Position numbers and translations under genes: made by a program
Part shown: in pieces, positions 7,291 to 19,316 of the stretch
Numbering within the stretch: position 1 is the first letter of the stretch
Layout of the letters: every line of letters begins with the position of its first letter
From: Nitrospirales bacterium
GTDB taxonomy: Bacteria > Nitrospirota > Nitrospiria > Nitrospirales > UBA8639
Reading direction: 5' to 3'
DNA: 46,642 nt
NCBI GenBank assembly: GCA_022825885.1
Contig: JAJDVY010000011.1
Location: forward strand, 1 to 46,642
Notes under the pieces: model-generated
Told to the model about the DNA's origin: nothing
Database searches by the model: none
The model's input: the letters and a program-made list of their open reading frames with translations, nothing else

Positions 7291-7440
7291 AGCGAGATTT
7301 GAACGGGGGATCGGAAGGGGGTGTGCCCCCTTCCCGGGGTGAACGGAGCGAAGCGGAGGCGCGAGGGGGCTGGCCCCCTAGCGGGAGCGATGAACGACCG
7401 TTTAGCGCGACTTCAAATCCCGCCCTCTCCGCCATTAGCG
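7291..7440. repeat. Structured tRNA-adjacent element ending in a second tRNA 3' end
   Basis: Between the two tRNA 3'-end copies is a GC-rich stretch with two perfect hairpins: GAAGGGGG/CCCCCTTC with loop TGTG, and AGGGGG/CCCCCT with loop CTGG. A reversed T-arm-like string (GATTTGAAC, 7294-7302) precedes them, so the element is bracketed by tRNA-derived sequence in opposite orientations. No ORF is credible here; 7441-7562 shows nothing else. Confidence 0.55.
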
Positions 7441-7562
7441 GAACGATTTCACCGGACAGTCATTCCCAACTTTAAACCTCTTCTGTCTCTTTCTTCACCT
7501 CCAAAGTATGCGAGCCGGACAGAAGCACAATCCGCTTCTCCATTTCCCACAGGAACGCATTC

Positions 7563-8624
7563 ATGCGTGAACAGCGTTGGGAATCCCGGCAATCCCTGAA
7601 TTTCCCGCAGGTTCTCGACCTGCTCAACCGGCTTCAGGACAAAGGACTGCGTCCCGTTGACCCTGAGAAGGAAGGTATCTGCTACATCGAAGAATGGCCA
7701 GTTCCATCGCCCGAAGCCATCCAACGACTCGATCGATGGCCCCTGGAAGATGTGACGATGATGCACGTACTCGACGCCTGGAACGACGACTTCTTTCTCT
7801 TGGCCGGACGCTATCACTCGACCTTCCAACGCCATCAATCCGTGAGCGCCTATTGCTCTATCAGCCATCCCTGGCATCTTTCTGGCCATTTGGCCACGCT
7901 TCAGCCCCTTGCCATGTTCTGGATGGGCTTTCGCCATAGGCACTCATTCATCAGAATCCGGTTCCACACCACCAGGATTATCGCCCAAGGTGAGTTCTGC
8001 GACCCTTCCCAGCGACCGATCTGGCTGGAAGAACGCCGGACGGCGTTCCGTGAAGCAATCGAACTTCTCGATTTGCCGATAGACGTCTCGATTCAAAAAG
8101 ACCGGATCATGCTTCGCAACGAGCACGAAGAGGTGCCGTTTTTCTGTTCGTGGCCTGACGCGTTCGGTCCATGCCAATTCGAGTTCAATTCCTCTGATCC
8201 GTTCGCCTTTCTCGTACCGGCCAGCGGGTTGGCTTCGACGACTCGACTGCCCGCGGCCACGGTTCGAATCTATTTGACCGGCTTTTCCCGGGAAGCCCTC
8301 AAGGCATTCAAGGCGATTGAACCCGACGTGCGCACGGCCTACCGCTGCTCCGCACATGCCTGCCTCACGGACCTTCCCGTCCTTTTGAACATTGCGGGAC
8401 AAGGAGGCCGGCTCTACACCACGGTGTCCGAATTTCGAACCCAAGCCCTGCTCCCTGACTATCCGGACGCCGCAGCCATTGTCGGAATCATGGGAACGGA
8501 AAACCGCTATCACTTGGAAGTCCGCTTGAACATGATGCCCCTGCCCATGGATGAGATGACCTCCTGGCTCGAAACACTGTTCGCCTATCCCATGACCTAT
8601 GCCCCACTCTCTCCCTTTCCATAA
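7563..8624 (+). CDS. Hypothetical protein (353 aa)
   Basis: A complete soluble protein with no signal peptide, membrane segment or nucleotide-binding motif that I can see. It is rich in aromatic residues and histidine (for example FWMGFRHRHSF near residues 118-128). It begins at ATG 7563 with a moderate AGGA site eight bases upstream. It lies between the tRNA-Ser repeat element and the first NHLP precursor promoter, on the same strand, but separated from the precursor by a promoter, so it is not clearly part of the RiPP operon. I do not recognise the family. Codon use looks like the rest of the chromosome. Confidence 0.6.
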   Translation: MREQRWESRQSLNFPQVLDLLNRLQDKGLRPVDPEKEGICYIEEWPVPSPEAIQRLDRWPLEDVTMMHVLDAWNDDFFLLAGRYHSTFQRHQSVSAYCSISHPWHLSGHLATLQPLAMFWMGFRHRHSFIRIRFHTTRIIAQGEFCDPSQRPIWLEERRTAFREAIELLDLPIDVSIQKDRIMLRNEHEEVPFFCSWPDAFGPCQFEFNSSDPFAFLVPASGLASTTRLPAATVRIYLTGFSREALKAFKAIEPDVRTAYRCSAHACLTDLPVLLNIAGQGGRLYTTVSEFRTQALLPDYPDAAAIVGIMGTENRYHLEVRLNMMPLPMDEMTSWLETLFAYPMTYAPLSPFP

Positions 8625-8710
8625 ACCGATTACCCACCGCACCATTGTCTCATAATGAATTTGCATAGCGTATATATGCTTCCATGCATTGCTATTTTTT
8701 GTGCTTTGTG

Positions 8711-8739
8711 TTGCATAATGCTTATCTTTTGAGTACTCT
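8711..8739 (+). promoter_or_regulatory. Promoter of NHLP precursor 1
   Basis: TTGCAT-N17-TACTCT. The same arrangement (TTGCAC-N17-TACTCT) is kept upstream of precursor 2 although the spacer has diverged, which supports function. The expected start lies near 8746, giving a 5' UTR of about 84 nt. Confidence 0.55.
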
Positions 8740-8772
8740 ATTTTCCGTTAATCATAATCAGGGTGGTTGTGT

Positions 8773-8808
8773 ATGGACGATGAATTCAGATCTACTTGGA
8801 AACGTTAA
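8773..8808 (+). CDS. 11-codon upstream ORF before precursor 1
   Basis: ATG to TAA encodes MDDEFRSTWKR. AGGGTGG lies six bases upstream. Its stop is 21 bases before the precursor ATG. A positional and length homologue, MDDALSPTRKR, precedes precursor 2. It is either a translated leader peptide that controls precursor translation or a by-product of the duplicated sequence; I cannot tell which. Confidence 0.35.
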   Translation: MDDEFRSTWKR

Positions 8809-8829
8809 ATTTAAAAGGAGATTCCAATC

Positions 8830-9093
8830 ATGCAGACAGCGGTGGAAATTGAAACCAAACTCAAGGCAAAGGCAGATGAGGACGAAGTATTCCGGGCCCG
8901 GCTCCTGGAAGATCCGCGCACCGCGATAAAAGAAGTGACCGGCCTGAACGTCCCGGAGAATTTTTCTATCCATATCCATGAAGAAAGCGCGACGGATTTC
9001 CATCTGGTCCTGCCGCCGGCTGGCAGCCGTCTTTCCGATGAGGAACTGCGTGGGGCAGCGGGAGGTTGGGCACCAACCGACGATTCCTATTAG
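8830..9093 (+). CDS. NHLP-family RiPP precursor 1 (core WAPTDDSY)
   Basis: 87 aa, started by AAAGGAG nine bases before ATG 8830. Residues 1-79 form a nitrile-hydratase-alpha-like leader (MQTAVEIETKLKAKADEDEV..., then VTGLNVPENFSIHIHEESAT and FHLVLPP), the TIGR03793-type leader of NHLM/proteusin systems. It ends in a double-glycine site (AAGG), which a C39 peptidase should cut, leaving an unusually short core, WAPTDDSY, with no Cys and one Ser and one Thr. The leader is nearly identical to that of precursor 2. It is followed at once by a transporter fossil instead of intact export genes, so export probably depends on the transporters at 14-19 kb. Confidence 0.9.
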   Translation: MQTAVEIETKLKAKADEDEVFRARLLEDPRTAIKEVTGLNVPENFSIHIHEESATDFHLVLPPAGSRLSDEELRGAAGGWAPTDDSY

Positions 9094-9241
9094 GTTTATT
9101 GCATATCGGCTTTCCACAATCCGCGTGGCAAACCGGATTGATTTGCTGCAGGCTGGCCAGGTTGTCGAGATGGACCGATTCGAGGAATTACTCGCGGAAG
9201 AAGGCCTCCTTCGTGACTTGGCCCAACGGCAACAAACGTAA
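9092..9241 (+). pseudogene. Fossil: 3' tail of an NHLM ABC2 transporter
   Basis: Translation of 9092-9241 gives RFIAYRLSTIRVANRI, LLQAGQVVEMDRFEELLAEE and ends RDLAQRQQT-stop. It aligns end to end with the C-terminus of the intact ABC2 (RFVIAHRLSTIRLADRIYVL ... RDLVLRQMA), covering the H-loop and terminal helix. One codon is missing before the H-loop. The rest of the gene is absent. It overlaps the last two bases of precursor 1 and, antisense, the end of the 356-aa gene. It is evidence for a former second transporter set behind precursor 1. Confidence 0.8.
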
Positions 9242-10258
9242 ACCTCCGTAGGCCTTGGCCCGCACACGCTCACCGTCAACCGATAACTTGACGTGGTTGA
9301 TTCCCATGTACAGTTGAAATGCCCCATCATTTCCGAAAACAGTTCTCAGCCTGGGCCAGGCCAGAAGACCTTCGGCCTTGACAGGCAAGCACAACTGCCA
9401 GTCACCCAGGCGTCGGATCACCGGCTTCCAGTCACGTTTCGATGTAATAAGCCAAGCAACGGGCAGAGCGCGGTAATTCGTCACATTTTTCTGCACCGGG
9501 TACATTTCGAAGCCGAGCCTCGGTAATACGCCATATTCGGTGGCATCGAAGAGGAATTGGAAGTGCCCGCAAAGATCACGCATGCCGGACAACAACTCCA
9601 GCACCGTGGCAATCGAACCTGGCCATTCGAGCCGCTTTAACAGGGGCCCGACTTCATGGAACTCCATGTCTGCCACAAGCAGCCTTACTGATCTGGGCGC
9701 ACGACCCGGGGTCGCTCCGACATAAACAAGTTTGGCACCCGCTGGCAGACAGCCCAAGGCCCGCACCAGAGCGCGACGCTCAGGTTCCCAGTCTCTGCGT
9801 GCAGATGCTTGCGCAACTGTGGCCGCAATGGCAACAGGTGTGGCGGTGATCCCGCCTGTCTCAGGGTCGGACAGCAGCCGCAGGTAGACAACCGGTGGCG
9901 CAGGCCGCTGTGGAGTTACACCGATAATGTCATAGGCCAGTAACACGGACTCGAGCCAGTGGTCGGTGTCGGATGAGTCCGTCAGATGCCCGGCGAGCCA
10001 GGCATCGGTGGATGCGGGCACGGCTGCTCCACCCCTGGCAATGTAGTAGCGACTCACTTGGCCCGGGGTAACCGGGCTTGAGAAGTCCGCTGCCGGCTCC
10101 TGCTCGTCGAGCCTGAATTCAAAGCCGCACAATGAGGTCACGGTGACGGCGGGCAGGTCCCCTATCCGCTCAAGCAGACGTCCCCAGCCTTGTCCGGCAA
10201 GCAGGGATTCCGGAATCTGGCCGTGGAGTCCAATCAATACGTCCCGGAAGTGCTCCAT
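9188..10258 (-). CDS. Unrecognised 356-aa protein of the RiPP island
   Basis: Soluble, no signal peptide, no metal or nucleotide motif that I can name. Notable segments are LGFEMYP near residue 260 and, near the C-terminus, MGINHVKLSV followed by RAKAYGGLRL, which look like conserved family signatures. ATG 10258 lies 24 bases after the methyltransferase stop on the same strand, so it is probably co-transcribed as the last gene of the tailoring set; its ribosome site is weak. Its 3' end overlaps the antisense ABC2 fossil. It could be a modification enzyme or a substrate-binding partner. No function is assigned. Confidence 0.7.
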   Translation of the reverse strand: MEHFRDVLIGLHGQIPESLLAGQGWGRLLERIGDLPAVTVTSLCGFEFRLDEQEPAADFSSPVTPGQVSRYYIARGGAAVPASTDAWLAGHLTDSSDTDHWLESVLLAYDIIGVTPQRPAPPVVYLRLLSDPETGGITATPVAIAATVAQASARRDWEPERRALVRALGCLPAGAKLVYVGATPGRAPRSVRLLVADMEFHEVGPLLKRLEWPGSIATVLELLSGMRDLCGHFQFLFDATEYGVLPRLGFEMYPVQKNVTNYRALPVAWLITSKRDWKPVIRRLGDWQLCLPVKAEGLLAWPRLRTVFGNDGAFQLYMGINHVKLSVDGERVRAKAYGGLRLLPLGQVTKEAFFRE

Positions 10259-10282
10259 GTGCAGGTTCTTATTCCAGCGGGC

Positions 10283-11083
10283 TTAACCTGTAGAGTACTT
10301 GGCGACAATTTCCCCCCAATGAATGGGTAAAACCGGAAACTTCCGAAAGCGAGGGAGACCAAATTCCTTCTCCCTGGGCCTAGGAATGACCATTGGCGTA
10401 ATATCCAGTGCCGACGTCACACGAAACCCGGTAGCTTCAAGCGCCGACACCATATCTTCCATGGATGGTGTCGGTTGAACGTATATCTGGCAAAACGCGT
10501 AGATCTCCTTCCATTCCTGAACCGTCATTTTCCCGGACCTGCGGAAGACATCCTTGATGTAGACCTTTCCGCCATTGCGCAACACTCGGGCAATCTCGGT
10601 AAAGAGTTCCTCAAGCTGAAAGGAATATCCTGCGGACTCCAGAAAAAGCGCACAGTCGAATGTGTGGTCTGGAAACGGCAGCTTGTGGTAGTCCCCTACC
10701 TGAACATGAACCCGCCCGCTGGCCGGGGAGTCGGCGATTAGGCGCTGGGCCAACTCGGCCTGATATGGCGAGAGGGTTATGCCATGCACTTCCAGACCTG
10801 GAGTATGCAGGGCCGCGTACAGGCCCGGGCCACCCACGCCGCATCCGGCATCAAGCACCACCTGACCGCTACGAAGACCGGACCGGGTCAGGATGGTTTG
10901 ATTATTGTCGTCATACGACTCACCGGCAGAGGAGTCATCGAGAAATATCCCGGCCTGAATTGTGGTGCCAAACTTCAGATAATGGTCTGTCGTTTCCTGC
11001 CAATAACGAATCTGTTCTTCCTTCCACCACTGCGTGCTGCCGGAGTTTTCCACGATACCAGTTTCCATTGAATCCGAATTCAA
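10283..11083 (-). CDS. SAM-dependent methyltransferase (class I)
   Basis: 266 aa, Rossmann-type methyltransferase. Motif I is VLDAGCGVGGPG (residues 76-87), followed by HGITLSPYQAELA and DYHKLPFPDHTFD and ALFLESAGY (motifs II-III), the arrangement of UbiE/Methyltransf_11 small-molecule methyltransferases. The start is TTG 11083: a perfect AAAGGAGG stands eight bases before it, while the nearest ATG (11068) is too far away. It lies between the 2OG-type gene and the 356-aa gene in the minus-strand tailoring set. An O-methylation of a hydroxylated core residue is plausible but inferred. Confidence 0.88.
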   Translation of the reverse strand: MNSDSMETGIVENSGSTQWWKEEQIRYWQETTDHYLKFGTTIQAGIFLDDSSAGESYDDNNQTILTRSGLRSGQVVLDAGCGVGGPGLYAALHTPGLEVHGITLSPYQAELAQRLIADSPASGRVHVQVGDYHKLPFPDHTFDCALFLESAGYSFQLEELFTEIARVLRNGGKVYIKDVFRRSGKMTVQEWKEIYAFCQIYVQPTPSMEDMVSALEATGFRVTSALDITPMVIPRPREKEFGLPRFRKFPVLPIHWGEIVAKYSTG

Positions 11084-11168
11084 TTTGCACGCCTCCTTTC
11101 AGCCCGCAATCCAACGTTATACAAAACCGGTCGGGCAATCAAGCATTGCCGTATTGTCCAACGTGAAG

Positions 11169-11255
11169 TGATGGTGAAGCGGATGTCTGGAACATCGCTC
11201 TCGAATGCCAACACGCCAACGGCAAAGTCCGACACATCTCCCCGCTTCACCATCA
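11169..11255. repeat. 14-bp perfect inverted repeat around a 59-bp loop
   Basis: TGATGGTGAAGCGG (11169-11182) and its exact complement (11242-11255) bracket sequence with further imperfect pairing. It lies in the 253-bp gap upstream of the methyltransferase gene, which otherwise contains no supported gene. It could be the remnant of a small mobile element or an RNA hairpin. Confidence 0.5.
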
Positions 11256-11336
11256 CGTTGGTATTGGAAAACGCTATCGCAGGGCGCAACCGGGTAACTC
11301 TTGTAAGGACATCAGAGGCCCAAAGGTCGCACGTAA

Positions 11337-11930
11337 TCATCCAGGCATCAATTGTTCAATACTACTCAAGACATTCAATACTAACGCATGTCTTTCTTGA
11401 ATATCATTACAAGAATAACTGTGCCAGGTATCTTCTGCCTTGCTGAATATTAATCCCCTGTTCGGTTTCCAGGGAACTTCAAAACGATTATTGCCATTTT
11501 GATTAGAGAATAAAAACGTTCCAAAATTTTCTTCGGGCCCACAATAGACAACCGTTGATAGCAGCTTCTCAGGAATATCGGGGTGAATTGAATACACAAG
11601 AGATTTTGGAGTTGTTTGAAATCCCCAATCAACATACTTTGCTTGCTCTACTTTATGTGGCGTCAATTCTTCCAGTATATTCAAAAGTATTGGTGTGAAC
11701 TTTGCATTGATTGGCTCCAGCTTTTTCTCGGGACAATGGCTATTGTTATAAACGCACTGGCCTGACAAATTAAAAGTACACTTAACAGTCAAAATCCCTC
11801 TTCTGGGATTAAACTTTCTATCTATACTGGCAAATCCACTTTTTACTGTCTCAAATTCATCGGGCTCAAAAAAATCATCCAGCACGATATACGGGTTTGT
11901 CCATAAGTAATCCAAAGTAACTTTTTTCAT
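11337..11930 (-). CDS. 2OG-Fe(II) oxygenase-like protein
   Basis: 197 aa. A double-stranded beta-helix iron site is suggested by H116-x-D118 (in YSIHPDIPEK), H170 (in EDTWHSYS) and R180 (in QERHALVLN); the spacing suits Fe(II)/2-oxoglutarate prolyl-hydroxylase-like enzymes. STVVYCGP and FGTFLFSNQNG form the intervening strands. Probable role: hydroxylation of a core-peptide residue or other oxidative tailoring. The gene is visibly more AT-rich than its neighbours, suggesting a different origin. ATG 11930 has no clear ribosome site, and 190 bp of apparently noncoding sequence separates it from the cmcJ-like gene. Confidence 0.7.
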   Translation of the reverse strand: MKKVTLDYLWTNPYIVLDDFFEPDEFETVKSGFASIDRKFNPRRGILTVKCTFNLSGQCVYNNSHCPEKKLEPINAKFTPILLNILEELTPHKVEQAKYVDWGFQTTPKSLVYSIHPDIPEKLLSTVVYCGPEENFGTFLFSNQNGNNRFEVPWKPNRGLIFSKAEDTWHSYSCNDIQERHALVLNVLSSIEQLMPG

Positions 11931-12122
11931 CGGGTCAGGTCATCCGAGGGATAGAAAAGACCGGAATCCGTTCAGAAATGGATGTCTTAAACCAATACGG
12001 CATCGGATCTGAAGGTTCATCAAGAGAGACGCGCCCGATTCGGCGTATGGCCTTAAGACTCTGGTACGATATCCGGGTGGATAATCAACTTCGAGATCAG
12101 CAGCACGTTCTGAAGCTCCCTG

Positions 12123-13097
12123 CTATGGTGCGGGACCGGGGCCTGCTACTGGGGGCTGCTGTTGGATGCCGTTCCAGTCGACCATCTCTTCGTGGCACCA
12201 GGATGAAACCGTGCCGTCGAGCCGGGTGTTCGGCACTTCGGCCTGAAATCTAGCCTTTCTGCGCTCGCGTTCCAAGTCAGCCTCAGGGAAGACCGCCAGC
12301 ACGCGGACTTCGATCGACTCCCGCAATGGCGCGTCCCTCCGGGTGGTCGGGTCCCGGAACGCGGTATGGAATACCGCACGCTTGCCAGCATCTTCCTGAC
12401 GCGTGTCGTACTGCTTGAAGATCAGCACCTCGTCCGGCGTCATTCGTGGAAAGTAGTACCAGCCCTGCCTGCTGTCGTGGATCAGACGGCAATCGATCAG
12501 ACGAGTTCGCGGCTCGGTGCGCCGCAGGCAATCAGCGTAAATGATGTCATCGTCGGCAACGGTGGTGACATCGCACAGAGCCAGCGGCATCAATTCGATC
12601 TCATGAGTGGGATGCGTCCCACGCCAGATGTTGAACAAGGCGAAGTGGTGTTCCTCCGGCACATCCGTGATATCCTCAACAAAGGGGGTGAAGTCGGCGT
12701 GGACTACAAGGGAATAGAGGCCAGCACCTGCGGGACCAATCACCTTCCCGGCGCGGAACTCGTGCTGCATAGTCCTGGTGGTAAGACACCCGGTGGCAGC
12801 CTTGACCAGATTCGCGCAATGCTCGTAATAACGGGTCGTTACCAGTGAAGAATCGCTGAAATCCAGATCAATCGGGGCCTCCATCAACTGGAAGCCCTCG
12901 CGCTCGATACTCGGTGCCTGCTTGAGCGAACGGGCGTCATGGACCCGAATCTGCTTGCGGCAAAGCGCCGTCCGACTGCCATCCGGGTCGAACGCGTCTT
13001 TGCCCAGCAGCCGGGTGCCCCGATACTTTGGGTTGATGAAAATGCTATCCGAAACCACAAAAGGCACGTCCACCAGCGGCGGCAGTCGTCCCTTCAT
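12123..13097 (-). CDS. CmcJ/NvfI-family oxidoreductase (Fe/2OG type)
   Basis: 324 aa with the family landmarks in order: NIWRG (156-160), PLALCD (171-176), YYFPRMTPDEVLIFKQYD (214-231), HTAFRDP (244-250) and LRESIEVRVL (258-267). H133-x-D135 (VHADFT) and H244 can supply the iron triad. Relatives are CmcJ (partner in 7-alpha-methoxylation of cephamycin C), AsaB and the fungal endoperoxidase NvfI. In this cluster it is expected to oxidise the precursor core. GGAGG seven bases before ATG 13097 and a promoter at 13140-13168 show it heads the minus-strand tailoring set. A truncated paralogue lies at 19126-19239. The Pro-rich tail is probably disordered. Confidence 0.88.
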   Translation of the reverse strand: MKGRLPPLVDVPFVVSDSIFINPKYRGTRLLGKDAFDPDGSRTALCRKQIRVHDARSLKQAPSIEREGFQLMEAPIDLDFSDSSLVTTRYYEHCANLVKAATGCLTTRTMQHEFRAGKVIGPAGAGLYSLVVHADFTPFVEDITDVPEEHHFALFNIWRGTHPTHEIELMPLALCDVTTVADDDIIYADCLRRTEPRTRLIDCRLIHDSRQGWYYFPRMTPDEVLIFKQYDTRQEDAGKRAVFHTAFRDPTTRRDAPLRESIEVRVLAVFPEADLERERRKARFQAEVPNTRLDGTVSSWCHEEMVDWNGIQQQPPVAGPGPAP

Positions 13098-13139
13098 CTC
13101 CCAACCTCCGAACTCCGTTCAGGTTATTTGTCGCAGGGT

Positions 13140-13168
13140 AGTGTAAGAAACGCCTTGATGCGAGTCAA
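13140..13168 (-). promoter_or_regulatory. Promoter of the tailoring genes
   Basis: Minus strand: TTGACT, a 17-nt spacer, then TACACT, about 36 bases upstream of the cmcJ-like ATG. It is divergent from the precursor 2 promoter, so the 318-bp gap 13098-13415 holds two diverging promoters plus the mini-ORF. Confidence 0.5.
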
Positions 13169-13297
13169 GACAGAACGGAGCAAAGGAAAACGATGGTAAA
13201 AACCGGCCGCGTCCTGCGATAGTGTATAAGTTCAGAAACCTTTGGCACTCCTCGAATCAGGAAGAGCGGCCATGCATTGCCATTTTTGTGTTTTATA

Positions 13298-13326
13298 TTG
13301 CACAACCATTATTTTCTTGTTACTCT
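13298..13326 (+). promoter_or_regulatory. Promoter of NHLP precursor 2
   Basis: TTGCAC-N17-TACTCT, matching the promoter of precursor 1 in both boxes and in spacer length. The expected transcript start is near 13333. Confidence 0.55.
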
Positions 13327-13359
13327 ATTTGCCATTAATAATAATCATGGTGGTTGTTT

Positions 13360-13395
13360 ATGGATGATGCACTCAGTCCTACCCGGAAACGTTGA
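13360..13395 (+). CDS. 11-codon upstream ORF before precursor 2
   Basis: ATG to TGA encodes MDDALSPTRKR, the same length and position as MDDEFRSTWKR before precursor 1, with MDD, Thr and KR kept. The stop lies 20 bases before the precursor ATG. The proposed ribosome site (TGGTGG) is poorer than in copy 1. Confidence 0.35.
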   Translation: MDDALSPTRKR

Positions 13396-13415
13396 ATTCA
13401 AAAGGAGGTACCATC

Positions 13416-13682
13416 ATGCAGACAGCGGTAGAAATCGAAACCACGCTCAAGGCGAAGGCAGATGAGGACGAAGTATTCCGCACCCAGCTCCTGGAAGATC
13501 CGCGTAACGCGATCAAGGCAGTGACTGGCCTGACCGTCCCGGAAGATTTTTCAATCCACGTCCATGAAGAGAGCGCGACGGATTTCCATCTGGTCCTGCC
13601 GCCGGCAGGCGGGCGCCTTTCCGACCAGGAAATACGCGAAGCCTCCGGCGGCTGCGGGGATTGCGGTTTGGGGGACTACTAG
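13416..13682 (+). CDS. NHLP-family RiPP precursor 2 (core CGDCGLGDY)
   Basis: 88 aa. ATG 13416 is preceded at seven bases by a perfect AAAGGAGG; the frame extends to a TTG at 13392 without support. The leader (1-79) matches precursor 1 at most positions and ends in EASGG. The predicted core CGDCGLGDY has two Cys, three Gly, two Asp and a terminal Tyr, chemically unlike precursor 1. It is followed by a strong hairpin and then the export genes on the same strand, the normal NHLM order. The core could carry a disulfide or thioether, or could bind metal; no cyclase is recognisable nearby. Confidence 0.92.
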   Translation: MQTAVEIETTLKAKADEDEVFRTQLLEDPRNAIKAVTGLTVPEDFSIHVHEESATDFHLVLPPAGGRLSDQEIREASGGCGDCGLGDY

Positions 13683-13763
13683 ACAGCAAGCAACCGTCAG
13701 CCGGTCCGTAACGACCGCGGTCCTCCTGAACAGGATGGCTGACTACTCGATAGGGTTAACGAG

Positions 13764-13804
13764 GTGCGGCCGTCGGTAACACGACGGCCGCACTGTTGTT
13801 CTTT
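13764..13804 (+). terminator. Rho-independent terminator/attenuator after precursor 2
   Basis: A 12-bp perfect stem, GTGCGGCCGTCG / CGACGGCCGCAC, with a six-base loop is followed by TGTTGTTCTTT. Placed between the precursor and the export genes, it should make precursor mRNA much more abundant than transporter mRNA while allowing read-through. Confidence 0.75.
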
Positions 13805-13821
13805 ACGCATTTTCCCATGCC

Positions 13822-13992
13822 GTGACCGGCAGATCCCTTTATCGAAGGGAAGCACTCATTCGCAACGTGCAGCCTGAAGCGCTGGACGATCTGCTACGAG
13901 TGACGTCCCCGCACGAACGAGTCTTCAGGATGGCGCTCCTCGTCCTGTTGCTCATACTGGCTGTCTGGGCCGCGTTCTCGGCCTGGCTGTGA
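13822..13992 (+). pseudogene. N-terminal stub of the NHLM HlyD-type secretion adaptor
   Basis: GTG 13822 to TGA 13990 gives 56 residues: SLYRREALIRNVQPEALDDL, then LRVTSPHERVFR, then one hydrophobic helix (ALLVLLLILAVWAAFSAW). This is the cytoplasmic tail and TM of NHLM secretion proteins (TIGR03794-like, normally several hundred residues). The coiled-coil and barrel parts are missing altogether, and the next gene starts six bases after the stop. It is either a clean deletion remnant or a retained single-TM accessory peptide. There is no good ribosome site. Confidence 0.65.
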
Positions 13993-13998
13993 TCCAGG

Positions 13999-16227
13999 AT
14001 GGCAGATCTTCCCGAGTCGAAGTCCCCTGTCACCCCCAAGCGACGGCGCCCATGGCGCCGCCGCCGCACACCGCTGTTCATGCAGTTGGAGGCTGCCGAC
14101 TGCGGCGCCGCCTGTCTGGGAATCGTGCTCGCCCATTTCGGTTGCTGGGTATCCCCGGAAGAACTGCGCGAGGAGTGCGGCGTCGGGCGCGACGGCTCGA
14201 CCCTCGAAGACATCGCGCTCGCCGCCCGGCGATACGGTCTGAAGGCGACCGGCTGGAGCAGCCAGATCGAGAGGTTGGCCGGCCTGCCATTGCCGATGAT
14301 CCTGTTCTGGGGATTCAAGCACTTCGTCGTCCTGGAGGGCATCTCACAAGGGCGTTACTATCTGAACGATCCCGCTGAAGGACATCGTGTCGTCGATGCA
14401 CACGTCTTCAATCGTGACTTTACCGGCGTGGGATTGGTGCTGGAGACGAGTCCCGCGTTCCGACCGATTGGGAAACGGCCGGGCGTGGTGCGCCAGCTAG
14501 CGCCGTGGCTGCGAGGGTACGGTTCCTTCCTGACGCGCACGGCCATCTATGGCCTGCTCCTGGCATTGACCTCGTTGGCGTTACCCGTGTTGCTTGCGCT
14601 ATTCGTGGACCGTGTTCTGGAAAACCGGCAGACGGACTGGAACGGACCGCTGATCGCGGGGATGCTGGCCGTTGGCGGACTGACCTGCCTGTGCACGTGG
14701 CTTCAGATGCGTTCCCTGCGCGAACTCGTGGTGCAACTGTCCATCAACCAGTCAGCTCGCTACCTGGATCATCTTCTTCGACTTCCCATGAAATTCTTCG
14801 CGCACCGGTATGCCGGTGATCTGGCGTTCCGCATGCGCTTGATCGAACAAGTGGCCGACACCGGGGCCGGTCAACTGGTGCGCCTGTCCGTCGATGTGGT
14901 GATGAGCATGGCGTTCCTGGCGGTCATGCTGATCTTCGACGTCTGGATGGGGCTTGCCGTTGCGGGGCTGGGAATCGCCTGCATTGTCGCCACCAGGGTG
15001 TTGACCCGCCTGCGTCGGGACATGAACCATCGACTGCGGCGCGAGCAGGGCATGTTCACCGGGATGAGCGCGGCGGGCATCCGGATGATCGAAATCCTGC
15101 AAGCGACGGCTCGCGAGAACGACTTCTTCTCGCGCTGGAGCGGCAGGCAGGCCCGCGAACTGAAAGCCCGGCAGGAGTTTGTCGAGTTCGGTCACGTGGC
15201 GGCCTCACTGCCGCAACTGTTTGTGATTCTCTCCGCAGCAGTGGTGTTCGGCCTTGGCGGCTGGCGCGCGATGTCCGGAGAGATCACCATCGGCGTGTTG
15301 ATCGGTTTATACGTTCTCGCCGGCAATTTTCTTCGTCCGGTGGCTCGAGTCGCCCAGGTCTCTGACCTGCTGGAGACCTTGGAGGCGGATCTGGCAAGGA
15401 TGGATGACGTGTTCAACGCGCCGGGAGAGGCGGCTTCCGCCGACCACGATACCGACTCGCATAAAAAAAAAGGGGGGGGGGTCCGAGTACTCGACGGCCG
15501 GCTGCGATTGGTCGGCCGGATGGAGATACGCGGCGTCACGTTCGGTTTCCAACGGAACCACGCGCCCTTGGTCAAAGACTTCAACCTGACCATTGAGCCC
15601 GGCCAGCGCGTGGCCGTAGTAGGGCCAAGCGGGTCGGGCAAGTCGACGTTGGCGCTCCTGGCGGCCGGGCTCTACCGGCCGTGGTCCGGGGAAGTACTCT
15701 TCGACGGCCACCCGCTGGACGGGATCCCACGCGAGGTGTTCTGCCGCTCCGTCTCCATCGTCGATCAGCACCCGGTTCTGTTCGCCACGACCCTGCGCAA
15801 CAATCTCACCCTATGGGACGCGACGATTCCTGACCATTTCGTGACCGCCGCGGCCCGAGACGCAGCAATTCACGAAGACATCATCGGCCGGCCGGCGGGG
15901 TACGAAGCGATGGTGGAGGAGGGAGGCCGGAACTTCAGCGGCGGACAGCGCTTACGCCTGGAAATCGCCAGGGCGCTGGTCAACAATCCGTCGCTCTTGA
16001 TTCTGGATGAAGCAACCAGCGCGCTCGACGCCGCCACCGAGTTGTTGATCGACGATAGGATTCGCCGACGGGGATGCTCCTGCCTCATCGTCGCACACCG
16101 GTTGAGCACCATCCGCGACGCCGACCGGATCGTCGTCGTCGACAAGGGCCGCATCGTGGAACAGGGCACACATGACGAACTCCACGCCCATGACACCTTC
16201 TACCGAAGGTTGCTCGATGGCGACTGA
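13999..16227 (+). CDS. NHLM RiPP ABC transporter 1 with C39 peptidase (TIGR03796-like)
   Basis: 742 aa: peptidase, membrane and ATPase domains in one chain. C39 peptidase residues: Cys35 (EAADCGAACL), His108 (GFKHFVVLEG) and Asp124 (YLNDPAEG). It should cut precursors after Gly-Gly. Six TM helices span about residues 170-440. NBD: Walker A GPSGSGKST near 542-550, signature FSGGQRLRLE near 645, Walker B LLILDEATSAL, H-loop IVAHRLSTIR. It acts in the inner membrane with ABC2. The TMD-NBD linker (residues 489-494, KKKGGG) is encoded by A9 followed by G10, a striking slippage-prone tract. ATG 13999 follows the adaptor stub by six bases and overlaps ABC2. Confidence 0.93.
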   Translation: MADLPESKSPVTPKRRRPWRRRRTPLFMQLEAADCGAACLGIVLAHFGCWVSPEELREECGVGRDGSTLEDIALAARRYGLKATGWSSQIERLAGLPLPMILFWGFKHFVVLEGISQGRYYLNDPAEGHRVVDAHVFNRDFTGVGLVLETSPAFRPIGKRPGVVRQLAPWLRGYGSFLTRTAIYGLLLALTSLALPVLLALFVDRVLENRQTDWNGPLIAGMLAVGGLTCLCTWLQMRSLRELVVQLSINQSARYLDHLLRLPMKFFAHRYAGDLAFRMRLIEQVADTGAGQLVRLSVDVVMSMAFLAVMLIFDVWMGLAVAGLGIACIVATRVLTRLRRDMNHRLRREQGMFTGMSAAGIRMIEILQATARENDFFSRWSGRQARELKARQEFVEFGHVAASLPQLFVILSAAVVFGLGGWRAMSGEITIGVLIGLYVLAGNFLRPVARVAQVSDLLETLEADLARMDDVFNAPGEAASADHDTDSHKKKGGGVRVLDGRLRLVGRMEIRGVTFGFQRNHAPLVKDFNLTIEPGQRVAVVGPSGSGKSTLALLAAGLYRPWSGEVLFDGHPLDGIPREVFCRSVSIVDQHPVLFATTLRNNLTLWDATIPDHFVTAAARDAAIHEDIIGRPAGYEAMVEEGGRNFSGGQRLRLEIARALVNNPSLLILDEATSALDAATELLIDDRIRRRGCSCLIVAHRLSTIRDADRIVVVDKGRIVEQGTHDELHAHDTFYRRLLDGD
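15463..15481 (+). repeat. Homopolymer tract A9G10 inside the C39-ABC transporter gene
   Basis: Nine A followed by ten G encode KKK-GGG and the first base of Val in the linker between TMD and ATPase. Either run could slip and shift the frame, removing the ATPase domain. The frame is intact as given. Confidence 0.9.
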
Positions 16228-19129
16228 GAAAGCATCAAACGACATGCTGCCGGGGTTCGCCGTGACGTTCGGCGAACCCCGGCCCGCAGCCGCCAACCGT
16301 CCCACTCGTCTGAACGATTCCCGCGTCGTGTGGTTCGTTGAGCGTGGGGCCATCGACGTCCTGGCGGCGGAATGTGTCGACGACCGGATGCAATCACCCT
16401 TCAAACACCTCATGCGCCTGGAGCAAGGCCGGCTGGCGTTCGGCGTCGATGAAGACGGCCACTCGCTCATGCTGATGGCTAAGGGAGTGCAATCGTCCTG
16501 TCTCCGTTGTCTGCCGCTCGACCAGTTGATCGAAGAGTTGGGGAAGAGGGACGAGGCCGACGAACTCTCGCGTGAGCTGATCCGGCAGGCCGACGCCTGG
16601 ATTGAGGACTTGGCTGCCGCGGTGGCGCGCGAAGTGGAAGGGCGTCCGCGTACCGAATTTCGACTCTCCCCCGGAAGCGCCACGGGTCGCGGCATCTCGT
16701 CTGCCGAGCGCGGCGTGGTCTGGGTGGTCGCCGATAACCTCGATGCCGCGTTCCTCGAAGTGGTAGATGCCGCAGCCGACGGGCCGGGCTTGATGCCAAT
16801 CACCCAGGACACTTGGATCCGATTGCATTCGACGTCGGGAACCGCCTGTAGATCTTCCCACGAACTCGGCATCGACACCGTGCTGAACAAGGGATTGCCG
16901 GAATTTCACCGCCTGGCCCTCGGTGCCGAATCCTTCAACCGCCGCCTGCTGCTGGTCGACGACGCGAATCTGCAGGTAGCGCAAACCTCCCAGCGCCATC
17001 GTGAGAAGGCCTTGGCCAAACAGCGCCTGTCGTTCCTTTTCAACACCCGTGACCAAGCGGAGAGTGGCCGCACGCCGCTTGGTGACGCGTTGCGAATGAT
17101 CGGCCGGCACGAGGGCATCCGCATCCGCACGCCGGATCTCACCGGTCAAATGGAGCCTTCGTTCAACGATTACTGCGAGGCATCGGGCGTACGCCAACGC
17201 CGTGTGCGGCTGTCGGTGGAAGACCGTTGGTGGCTGGGAGACAGCGGCGCGATGCTGGCCTTTCGCCGCGACGATGACCGGCCCGTTGTGCTCCTGCCCG
17301 GCCGCGCCGGCCGATATCGGGTGGTGGATCCGGTCACCGGGACATCCGGCCCCGCGAGCGAGAAAACGACCGACGAGATTCACGGTGCGCGTACGCTGTA
17401 TCCCAGGTTGCACTCCGACGGCCCAGTCGGCGTGAGAGACCTGCTTCGCGTCGGCGGCGCGAAAGCAGTGGCCGAGTTCACCAGGCTCGTGGTGACCGGA
17501 CTCGGTGCCGGGTTACTGGCTCTCGCCCCGGCCGTGGCCGTCGACGTGCTGATCGCGAACGTGATGCCTACGGGCGACGCTGCGCCCTTGATTCAGCTCT
17601 CGGCGGTTCTGGTCGGCCTCGCCCTCCTGGCTGCGCTGGCGCACGTCCTTCGCGGCATGGCGCTCATGCGTCTGGAAGGGCGCCTGGCCGCGCGGATCGG
17701 TTCGGCCGTCTGGGACCGTCTGCTACGGCTGCGACCGGCGTTCTTTCGCGACTTCAACGCCGGAGAACTGGCCGCGAGATCGATGGTCTTTCAAGACGTG
17801 CGGGATCATGTCTCCGGCGTCACGGCCGACGCGGTGTTGTCGATGTTGTTTGTGCTGCCGGCGTTTGGGCTGCTGTTCTACTATGGTGCGGCGCTGGGCT
17901 GGGCCGTCGCCTGTCTGGCTATGGTTGCGCTTGGCGTGACAGCCGCGTTCTGCATTCGCCATATCGAACCCCAGCGCCGCTACTTACAAACGTCGCGCCA
18001 ACTTCTCGGCGACCTGCACCAATTCCTGAACGGGATTGCGAAGCTGCGCACGACCGGCGCCGAAGACTCGGCGTTCGCGGCCTGGGCGAGGCGGTACCGG
18101 GAGCACAAGCAGGCGGAGATTCGGCTGTCCGTCCTCAGCGAGTGGCTCGCCGCCTTCAGCGCCGCAGTGCCGGCAATCGGGAGCGCCGTCCTGTTCGCAG
18201 TGGTGGCGTCGCAAGACACCGGCGGACTCGCTACAGCGGATTTTCTCGCCGTTCATACCGCCGCCATGATCTTGTTTATGTCCATCGTCATGCTGGGCAA
18301 TTCGGCCAGATCCGTCGCGTTCATCAAGCCGGCCTGTGAGCAGGTACGTCCGATACTCGCAAGCCAGGTGGATGCCGGCGCCCAGTATGCAGCTCGGCTG
18401 AAGCTCGAAGGCGAGATCCTCCTCGACAAAGTGAGCTTTGGCTATTCCGGGGCTGGGTCGATGGTGTTGCAAGAGGTCTCGATTCACGCGAAGCCGGGTG
18501 AGTTCGTGGCGATCGTGGGCGAATCCGGCGCCGGCAAAAGCACCGTGTTCCGGTTGGCGCTGGGCCTTGAGAAGCCGTTGTCGGGCGCGGTGTACTATGA
18601 CGGGCGGGACCTGGCCCACATGAACGTCGGCGCGGTACGACGGCAGATCGGTGTGGTCACCCAGGACGGCACACTCCAGAGCGGCACACTCCTCGACAAC
18701 ATTATCGGCGTCGGCAACGACCTCACCGTGGAAGACGCGTGGCGCGCCGTCCGGCAAGCCGCGGTCGACCAAGAGATCCGCGCCATGCCCATGGGGCTCT
18801 ACACCACGGTGGGTGAGAACTCGGCAACGTTCTCGGGCGGCCAAATTCAGCGGATTCGCATCGCCGCCGCGCTGGTGCGGGCCCCTCGCATCGTGTTCCT
18901 CGACGAACCCACGAGTTGGCTCGACACCAGGAGCCAGACGCAGACGATGAAGGGGATCGAGGAGTCCACCAGCACGCGTTTCGTCATCGCGCATCGGCTG
19001 TCCACTATCCGGCTGGCGGATCGGATCTACGTGCTCCAAGCCGGTCGTGTGGTCCAAGTGGGCCGGTTCAACGAATTGTTCGCAGCGGACGGTCCGTTTC
19101 GTGACCTGGTCTTACGGCAAATGGCATGA
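16217..19129 (+). CDS. NHLM RiPP ABC transporter 2 (permease/ATPase, TIGR03797-like)
   Basis: 970 aa. The long N-terminal region (about 1-400) has no peptidase; this family carries a cyclic-nucleotide-binding-like domain there instead. TM helices and the exporter domain follow, then an NBD with Walker A GESGAGKST near residues 768-776, signature FSGGQIQRIR near 871, Walker B RIVFLDEPTSWLD and H-loop IAHRLSTIR. It probably forms a heteromeric exporter with ABC1. ATG 16217 is chosen because GAAGG stands seven bases before it; ATGs at 16172 and 16190 lie in frame inside the abc1 end. Its stop overlaps the ATG of the cmcJ fossil, so a third gene once followed in the operon. Confidence 0.9.
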   Translation: MATEKASNDMLPGFAVTFGEPRPAAANRPTRLNDSRVVWFVERGAIDVLAAECVDDRMQSPFKHLMRLEQGRLAFGVDEDGHSLMLMAKGVQSSCLRCLPLDQLIEELGKRDEADELSRELIRQADAWIEDLAAAVAREVEGRPRTEFRLSPGSATGRGISSAERGVVWVVADNLDAAFLEVVDAAADGPGLMPITQDTWIRLHSTSGTACRSSHELGIDTVLNKGLPEFHRLALGAESFNRRLLLVDDANLQVAQTSQRHREKALAKQRLSFLFNTRDQAESGRTPLGDALRMIGRHEGIRIRTPDLTGQMEPSFNDYCEASGVRQRRVRLSVEDRWWLGDSGAMLAFRRDDDRPVVLLPGRAGRYRVVDPVTGTSGPASEKTTDEIHGARTLYPRLHSDGPVGVRDLLRVGGAKAVAEFTRLVVTGLGAGLLALAPAVAVDVLIANVMPTGDAAPLIQLSAVLVGLALLAALAHVLRGMALMRLEGRLAARIGSAVWDRLLRLRPAFFRDFNAGELAARSMVFQDVRDHVSGVTADAVLSMLFVLPAFGLLFYYGAALGWAVACLAMVALGVTAAFCIRHIEPQRRYLQTSRQLLGDLHQFLNGIAKLRTTGAEDSAFAAWARRYREHKQAEIRLSVLSEWLAAFSAAVPAIGSAVLFAVVASQDTGGLATADFLAVHTAAMILFMSIVMLGNSARSVAFIKPACEQVRPILASQVDAGAQYAARLKLEGEILLDKVSFGYSGAGSMVLQEVSIHAKPGEFVAIVGESGAGKSTVFRLALGLEKPLSGAVYYDGRDLAHMNVGAVRRQIGVVTQDGTLQSGTLLDNIIGVGNDLTVEDAWRAVRQAAVDQEIRAMPMGLYTTVGENSATFSGGQIQRIRIAAALVRAPRIVFLDEPTSWLDTRSQTQTMKGIEESTSTRFVIAHRLSTIRLADRIYVLQAGRVVQVGRFNELFAADGPFRDLVLRQMA

Positions 19130-19239
19130 ACGGAGCCCGGGACGTGGAAGGATTAAGACGCTTCCCGGTCCTGTCGGAAACGCCCTTTGTCGTTTCCGAC
19201 AGCATCTTCGTCAACCCGAAGTACCGGGGCGCCCGCCTG
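19126..19239 (+). pseudogene. Fossil: 5' end of a second CmcJ/NvfI gene
   Basis: Translationally coupled ATG (ATGA with the abc2 stop). PFVVSDSIFVNPKYRGARL matches residues 12-30 of the intact CmcJ-like protein (PFVVSDSIFINPKYRGTRL), also at the DNA level. Similarity ends at about 19239, and what follows is unrelated sequence running into the 3' end of lpxK. This marks the right edge of the RiPP island and shows that a cmcJ-type gene originally sat downstream of the transporters on the plus strand. Confidence 0.8.
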
Positions 19240-19316
19240 TCACCCACGGCGGAGACGGGGATCCCCCCGAGCAGCGGGAGATGTTTCTTCAAGTCTGTTT
19301 CTTCCGAGGACGCACC

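Follow-up and report, generated by a model that had tools for sequence, protein, structure and literature searches.

A region of approximately 10.7 kb in contig JAJDVY010000011.1 of a Nitrospirales bacterium (46,642 nucleotides, referred to here as the window) encodes a cluster for ribosomally synthesized and post-translationally modified peptides (RiPPs), and among its genes is one for a 356-amino-acid (aa) protein with the predicted fold of an aromatic prenyltransferase. We interpret the region as a composite, horizontally acquired proteusin island, the product of which would be prenylated by the 356-aa protein on a tyrosine of the core peptide, methylated, oxidised, cleaved and exported, and we place the probability of this reading at about 0.68.

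The assignment of the 356-aa protein (9188..10258, reverse strand) derives from structure prediction. The AlphaFold2 model, for which an alignment of 24 family members was the input, has a predicted local distance difference test (pLDDT) value of 89.2 and a predicted template modelling (pTM) score of 0.88, and its five alpha-alpha-beta-beta units form the barrel that characterizes alpha-beta-beta-alpha (ABBA) enzymes. When the model is compared with known structures, ranks 1–39 in Foldseek are all ABBA prenyltransferases (best E value 4.8e-5). VIA-align gives Z scores of at least 8 for 131 of 999 chains, and among the matches listed all 50 entries are aromatic prenyltransferases with Z scores from 16.0 to 13.0, led by MpnD (Z 16.0 over 293 residues, root-mean-square deviation 4.4) and including DMATS1 (Z 15.8). 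The 24 homologues share the barrel-strand residues E47, R192, E251, H322, K324, K335 and Y337, and in distant relatives, down to about 20% identity, H322 and K324 are invariant and most of the others nearly so. E47 is on the first strand, as is the catalytic glutamate of DMATS enzymes, and K335 and Y337 are part of an AKAY motif. The model thus gives strong support for an ABBA/PT-barrel prenyltransferase fold, and prenyltransferase activity is the likely, predicted function.

The family is present in eight of 296 genomes sampled from the phylum, all of the same genus, and each of the 15 copies sits in a locus with an NHLP precursor. A scan of a genome collection yielded 23 loci with the family in Alpha- and Gammaproteobacteria, Nitrospinota, Binatia and Nitrospirales, all 23 of them with NHLP or NHLM genes. 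Distant relatives in Nostoc and Azospirillum adjoin NHLP-like precursors. In Acaryochloris, 356-aa-like frames adjoin a Nif11 precursor and are followed by a methyltransferase 44% identical to that in the window. On a Pseudanabaena plasmid (L018, 11467-13260) the 356-aa-like domain lies within a LanM/Nif11 cluster and is fused to a 2OG-FeII_Oxy_3 domain. Other neighbors of the family in related clusters include a squalene-cyclase-like protein, halogenase-like proteins and oxygenases. A parallel is provided by the ABBA enzyme MppC of Moorena producens, which adds a geranyl group to a tryptophan in a Nif11 lanthipeptide and requires the leader to do so (PMC12715784). The mpp cluster also encodes a halogenase, an oxygenase and a terpene synthase (PMC11791876); the terpene synthase adjacent to mppC has its counterpart in the squalene-cyclase-like neighbor of the 356-aa family. 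This likeness to MppC is drawn from the published description of that enzyme.

Two candidate substrates are encoded nearby. Precursor A (87 aa; 8830..9093, forward strand) and precursor B (88 aa counted from its ATG; 13416..13682, forward strand) score 65.2 and 59.3 bits against TIGR03793, both above the cut-off of 50.9 bits, and as it is the NHLP leader, rather than any set of modifications, that makes a peptide a proteusin (PMC9505594), the cluster is by its leader a proteusin-type RiPP cluster. In precursor A the leader ends in LSDEELRGAAGG and the core, which GG precedes, is WAPTDDSY; the core of precursor B is CGDCGLGDY. Orthologues of precursor A in other taxa have the cores WAPTNDSY, WAPTSSSY, WAPTSDSY, FAPTNDSY and IAPTKDSY, and in the related clusters designated type B the cores are FAPGGDSW, AVPTGDW and AVPTSGGW. 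Across clusters with a CmcJ-type oxygenase, all 12 distinct cores (including both from the window) end in tyrosine or tryptophan and the first residue is variable, so that the C-terminal aromatic residue appears the likeliest prenyl acceptor. We favor the prenyltransferase interpretation because of the fold matches, the conserved barrel residues, the linkage to NHLP genes, the aromatic cores, the squalene-cyclase-like neighbor and the MppC precedent together. From these we infer an order of steps: the NHLP leader would dock the modifying enzymes, by analogy with SrpE and MppE; the 356-aa ABBA-type enzyme would add a C5–C15 prenyl group to Tyr8 of WAPTDDSY and Tyr9 of CGDCGLGDY; the linked methyltransferase would methylate either the peptide or the prenyl donor; two Fe/2-oxoglutarate (2OG) enzymes would oxidise the core or the prenyl group; and the transporter component ABC1 would cut after Gly-Gly and, with ABC2, export the product.

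Three further tailoring genes lie on the reverse strand. The first, at 10283..11083, encodes a class I S-adenosylmethionine (SAM) methyltransferase (Methyltransf_11, 8.9e-18) and precedes the 356-aa gene, in the same orientation, by 24 bp; the two genes are 22–24 bp apart in the window and in several of the related clusters designated type A. Its closest solved structures are MitM and BezA (E 2e-16), and BezA methylates geranyl pyrophosphate. The second (12123..13097) encodes a 324-aa Fe/2OG oxygenase of the CmcJ/NvfI family, with 179.7 bits against NF041278 (cut-off 80), a match to the NvfI structure (E 5e-16) and an invariant H133xD135...H244 triad. It therefore has both the profile and the HxD...H motif of these oxygenases, the known members of which, to our knowledge, act on small molecules – NvfI on fungal meroterpenoids – whereas the substrate here is probably a peptide. 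The third (11337..11930) encodes a 197-aa protein that has no match in Pfam or NCBIfam scans but is likely a 2OG-Fe(II) oxygenase: the residues H116xD118...H170...R180 are invariant across four orthologues, PF13640 is weakly matched in three of the four (E 0.014), and its one phage relative, from a Synechococcus phage, carries a 2OG-Fe(II) oxygenase annotation (E 3e-6). The AlphaFold model of this protein is poor (pLDDT 49.6). The protein also matches PHROG 274, named 'DNA endonuclease V' (E 5e-10), but we attach little importance to that name, since both its HxD...H...R motif and the annotation of the phage relative favor a 2OG oxygenase. The gene has a G+C content of 37%, compared to 59% for the island, which together with the cyanophage relative suggests a separate origin.

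How these enzymes share the work is less certain than the fold of the 356-aa protein, and two variations on the scheme give the methyltransferase different roles. In one, it acts on the peptide backbone or a side chain only, the oxygenases hydroxylate only side chains, and no lipid step other than prenylation takes place. In favor of this version, the methyltransferase belongs to the generic class I enzymes and has O-methyltransferases among its closest solved relatives. Against it stands the tight pairing with the 356-aa gene in the window and several type-A clusters, and the order of genes in Acaryochloris also fits action on the prenyl group; we rate this division of labor at slightly less than even odds. 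In the other, the product is a peptide–terpenoid hybrid: the methyltransferase acts on the prenyl donor or chain, the 356-aa enzyme places the chain on the C-terminal tyrosine, the CmcJ/NvfI-type oxygenase oxidises it, and in relatives the squalene-cyclase-like protein cyclises it. We regard this as doubtful, but if true it would define a new RiPP class spread among sponge bacteria, and the products of srp clusters would be prenylated too.

A search of the genome for enzymes that might act in trans found no YcaO (PF02624), tryptophan halogenase (PF04820) or LanC-like gene. A halogenase-like flavin adenine dinucleotide protein of about 507 aa (L088, 5699-7222) is encoded beside the type-A clusters L088–L091, L093 and L094; it is missing in the window.

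A preliminary description of this DNA had recognized two NHLP precursors, an NHLM export system, a CmcJ/NvfI-type protein, a second 2OG-type protein and a SAM methyltransferase, and profile searches uphold the precursors, the CmcJ-type protein and the methyltransferase outright; the export system also stands, with ABC2 below its cut-off (see below), and the second 2OG-type protein is likely on the strength of its motif. The cluster indeed lacks LanM, YcaO, radical SAM and nitrile hydratase homologues. Two conclusions drawn from this do not survive, namely that tailoring is purely oxidative and methylating, given the predicted ABBA fold of the 356-aa protein, and that the cluster does not fit the proteusins, given its NHLP leader and its relationship to the srp clusters of sponges. 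The 353-aa protein, in which a known modifying family would by that description have counted against it, is encoded outside the cluster by a core chromosomal gene.

Several observations weigh against prenylation by the 356-aa protein. First, it has no sequence match in Pfam, NCBIfam or the PDB, and 24 homologues scanned against Pfam likewise had none, so that with no such link to known prenyltransferases the assignment rests on fold. Second, E47, R192, H322, K324, K335 and Y337 are candidates for the catalytic glutamate and the diphosphate-binding residues by their position on the barrel strands of the model. Third, a common fold does not equate to activity, and this may be an inactive relative that binds leaders. 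Fourth, the aromatic end is not strictly linked to the family: Nitrospinota cores adjoining it end in NQNS, and in a small control set the genome of L121, which lacks the family, encodes an NHLP-like peptide with a C-terminal tryptophan. Finally, two precursors, one exporter and two gene remnants could indicate a cluster in decay. On a rival reading the 356-aa protein is a non-catalytic scaffold of ABBA fold, which binds the leaders of NHLP and Nif11 precursors and offers them to enzymes such as 2OG oxygenases and YcaO, with tailoring then being oxidative and methylating. The family does co-occur with diverse tailoring genes (YcaO with halogenase, CmcJ with methyltransferase, LanM), it is fused to 2OG-FeII_Oxy_3 in Pseudanabaena, and sequence similarity to active prenyltransferases was not found. 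Nonetheless, we consider a scaffold unlikely: E47, R192, H322, K324, K335 and Y337 are invariant or nearly so over 20–70% identity, which a scaffold would not need, and the squalene-cyclase-like neighbor and the mpp parallel indicate isoprenoid chemistry.

The RiPP island itself extends from 8640 to 19315, both ends being approximate. It is inserted between a 353-aa protein gene (7563-8624) and lpxK, which in three sister genomes are separated by only 12–28 bp with no island, and it has a G+C content of 58.7% compared with 54–56% in the flanks; the 10.7 kb found here in place of 12–28 bp therefore sets the borders at about 8,640 and 19,315 and excludes the 353-aa gene. This gene, for which Pfam and NCBIfam give no match, is a core chromosomal gene of the genus, with homologues of 76–89% identity in 12 of 14 genomes, and the idea that it belongs to the cluster was therefore rejected; nor is it a paralogue of the 356-aa gene, there being no similarity between the two proteins. 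The start previously given at 8684 is merely an upstream ATG, the gene for precursor A beginning at 8830, and the island borders, a truncated HlyD open reading frame and remnants of ABC2 and CmcJ had escaped that reading. At 7403-7443, 206 bp past tRNA-Ser, the 3′ end of this tRNA gene is repeated in a 41-nt copy (90%), which was considered as a border and ruled out, the true border being after the 353-aa gene. Metagenome-assembled genomes (MAGs) of other phyla contain the cluster again with its gene pairs preserved, which excludes chance, and the sequence comparisons indicate that the island is a real, horizontally transferred proteusin-type cluster.

The island is also composite. The C-terminal end of a second ABC2, of type A, survives as a remnant at approximately 9095..9241 (forward strand). 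It shares 34 of 46 residues with the tails of the type-A ABC2 proteins in L108 and L093 and 28 of 45 with the island's own ABC2; it overlaps the 3′ end of the 356-aa gene by 54 bp, an overlap of the type seen in intact relatives. At the other end, 19159..19245 (forward strand) is a remnant of the N-terminus of a second CmcJ copy (69% identity over 29 aa), positioned as in the type-B gene order, where CmcJ follows ABC2 (L019/L020). In phylogenetic trees the 356-aa protein and CmcJ of the window each fall in a clade with proteobacterial sequences (support 100/99 each), apart from two comparable Nitrospirales, whereas ABC1 is outside the proteobacterial clade and closest to those two Nitrospirales (91/92). 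The differing trees, the two remnants, and the layout of L093, in which type-A and type-B clusters are adjacent, together indicate that the island is a fusion by deletion of two transferred clusters, with the enzymes from one and the exporter from the other. That this deletion and fusion left mismatched parts of a dying cluster with no defined product now, as the remnants, the different lineages of exporter and modifying enzymes and the missing halogenase-like gene of several relatives might imply, is quite improbable, since the genes that are left all have open, full-length frames and keep their catalytic motifs, both precursors have a clear leader and core, and L097 and L098 likewise lack the halogenase-like gene in the DNA examined.

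The export genes are all on the forward strand. ABC1 (13999..16227), with C39 peptidase, permease and ATPase domains, scores 858.6 bits against TIGR03796 (cut-off 853.3), and ABC2, a permease/ATPase (16172..19129), has its best match in TIGR03797 at 674.3 bits, below the equivalog cut-off of 709.4. No full HlyD-type secretion protein (TIGR03794) was found; instead, a 56-aa 'mini-HlyD' with a GTG start (13822..13992) matches only the first 39 of the 421 positions (E 0.0038). The short form, 49–68 aa, is kept in nine aligned relatives, and so a membrane anchor seems to replace the full adaptor. Upstream of each precursor there are a good ribosome-binding sequence, identified by direct reading, and promoter-like elements at corresponding positions. 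Between precursor B and the export genes lies a GC-rich hairpin of 13 bp with a T-rich stretch after it (13763..13794, forward strand), a possible terminator or attenuator. As consensus matches only, these elements fit with strong precursor and weaker exporter expression. Precursor numbers can be much larger elsewhere: L104 and L107, from Candidatus Binatia and an alphaproteobacterial MAG, each encode about 10 to 18 NHLP precursors alongside one to three members of the 356-aa family, and tryptophan is the last residue of nearly every core.

Comparison with known systems shows both shared and differing features. The window is predicted to resemble mpp in having an ABBA-type RiPP prenyltransferase and a short core preceded by a long, structured leader, but mpp has a Nif11 leader, a LanM ring and a halogenase, and the window an NHLP leader and neither LanM nor halogenase. 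With the srp system (SrpE, SrpC, SrpI; PMC10858898, PMC10286304) it shares the NHLP leader, a short core with an aromatic end and a probable association with sponge symbionts, although srp uses a YcaO cyclodehydratase and an SrpI-like tryptophan brominase, neither of which the window genome encodes. Loci of the genus that combine LCCCW cores with a TOMM cyclodehydratase and a putative halogenase match the srp clusters described in the literature (PMC10858898), and these loci also encode the 356-aa family. One srp-type cluster (L024, 4540-5841; likewise L026 and L029) encodes a protein that joins an NHLP leader-like domain to a squalene-cyclase-like toroid of some 330 residues, which gives the impression of a leader built into an enzyme. 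Proteusins such as polytheonamide also have an NHLP leader, a Gly-Gly core junction, and methylation and hydroxylation enzymes; the window differs from them in lacking a radical SAM epimerase or C-methyltransferase, in its cores of 8–9 residues and in its predicted prenyltransferase. The cyanobactin prenyltransferases PagF, LimF and KgpF belong to the fold class of the 356-aa model and to a different sequence family, and they act without a leader (PMC12715784), whereas leader dependence would be expected for the 356-aa protein. We found no report of a prenylated proteusin in the literature searched, which was mostly without subscription journals.

The host of the island is a probable marine sponge symbiont. 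The modifying genes group with a clade of proteobacterial MAGs, many of which are probably sponge symbionts, and the sample codes RHO, IRC and COS carried by many of the relatives may be read as the sponges Rhopaloeides, Ircinia and Coscinoderma, which were sampled in a published MAG study (PMC8163846). The genome (2.38 Mb; window G+C 54–59%) appears to resemble Ca. Nitrosymbion, a sponge-symbiont genus of Nitrospirales with 2.51 Mb and 56.7% G+C (PMC11812461).

If our interpretation is right, a prenyltransferase family invisible to the profiles tested is present in many proteusin clusters of sponge microbiomes, including those of srp type, the natural products of which are still unknown, and there would be concrete masses to seek in sponge extracts. 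Leader-guided prenylation would be extended from lanthipeptides to NHLP peptides, with new enzymes for lipidating short linear peptides, and the history of the island shows that modifying and export modules recombine across phyla.

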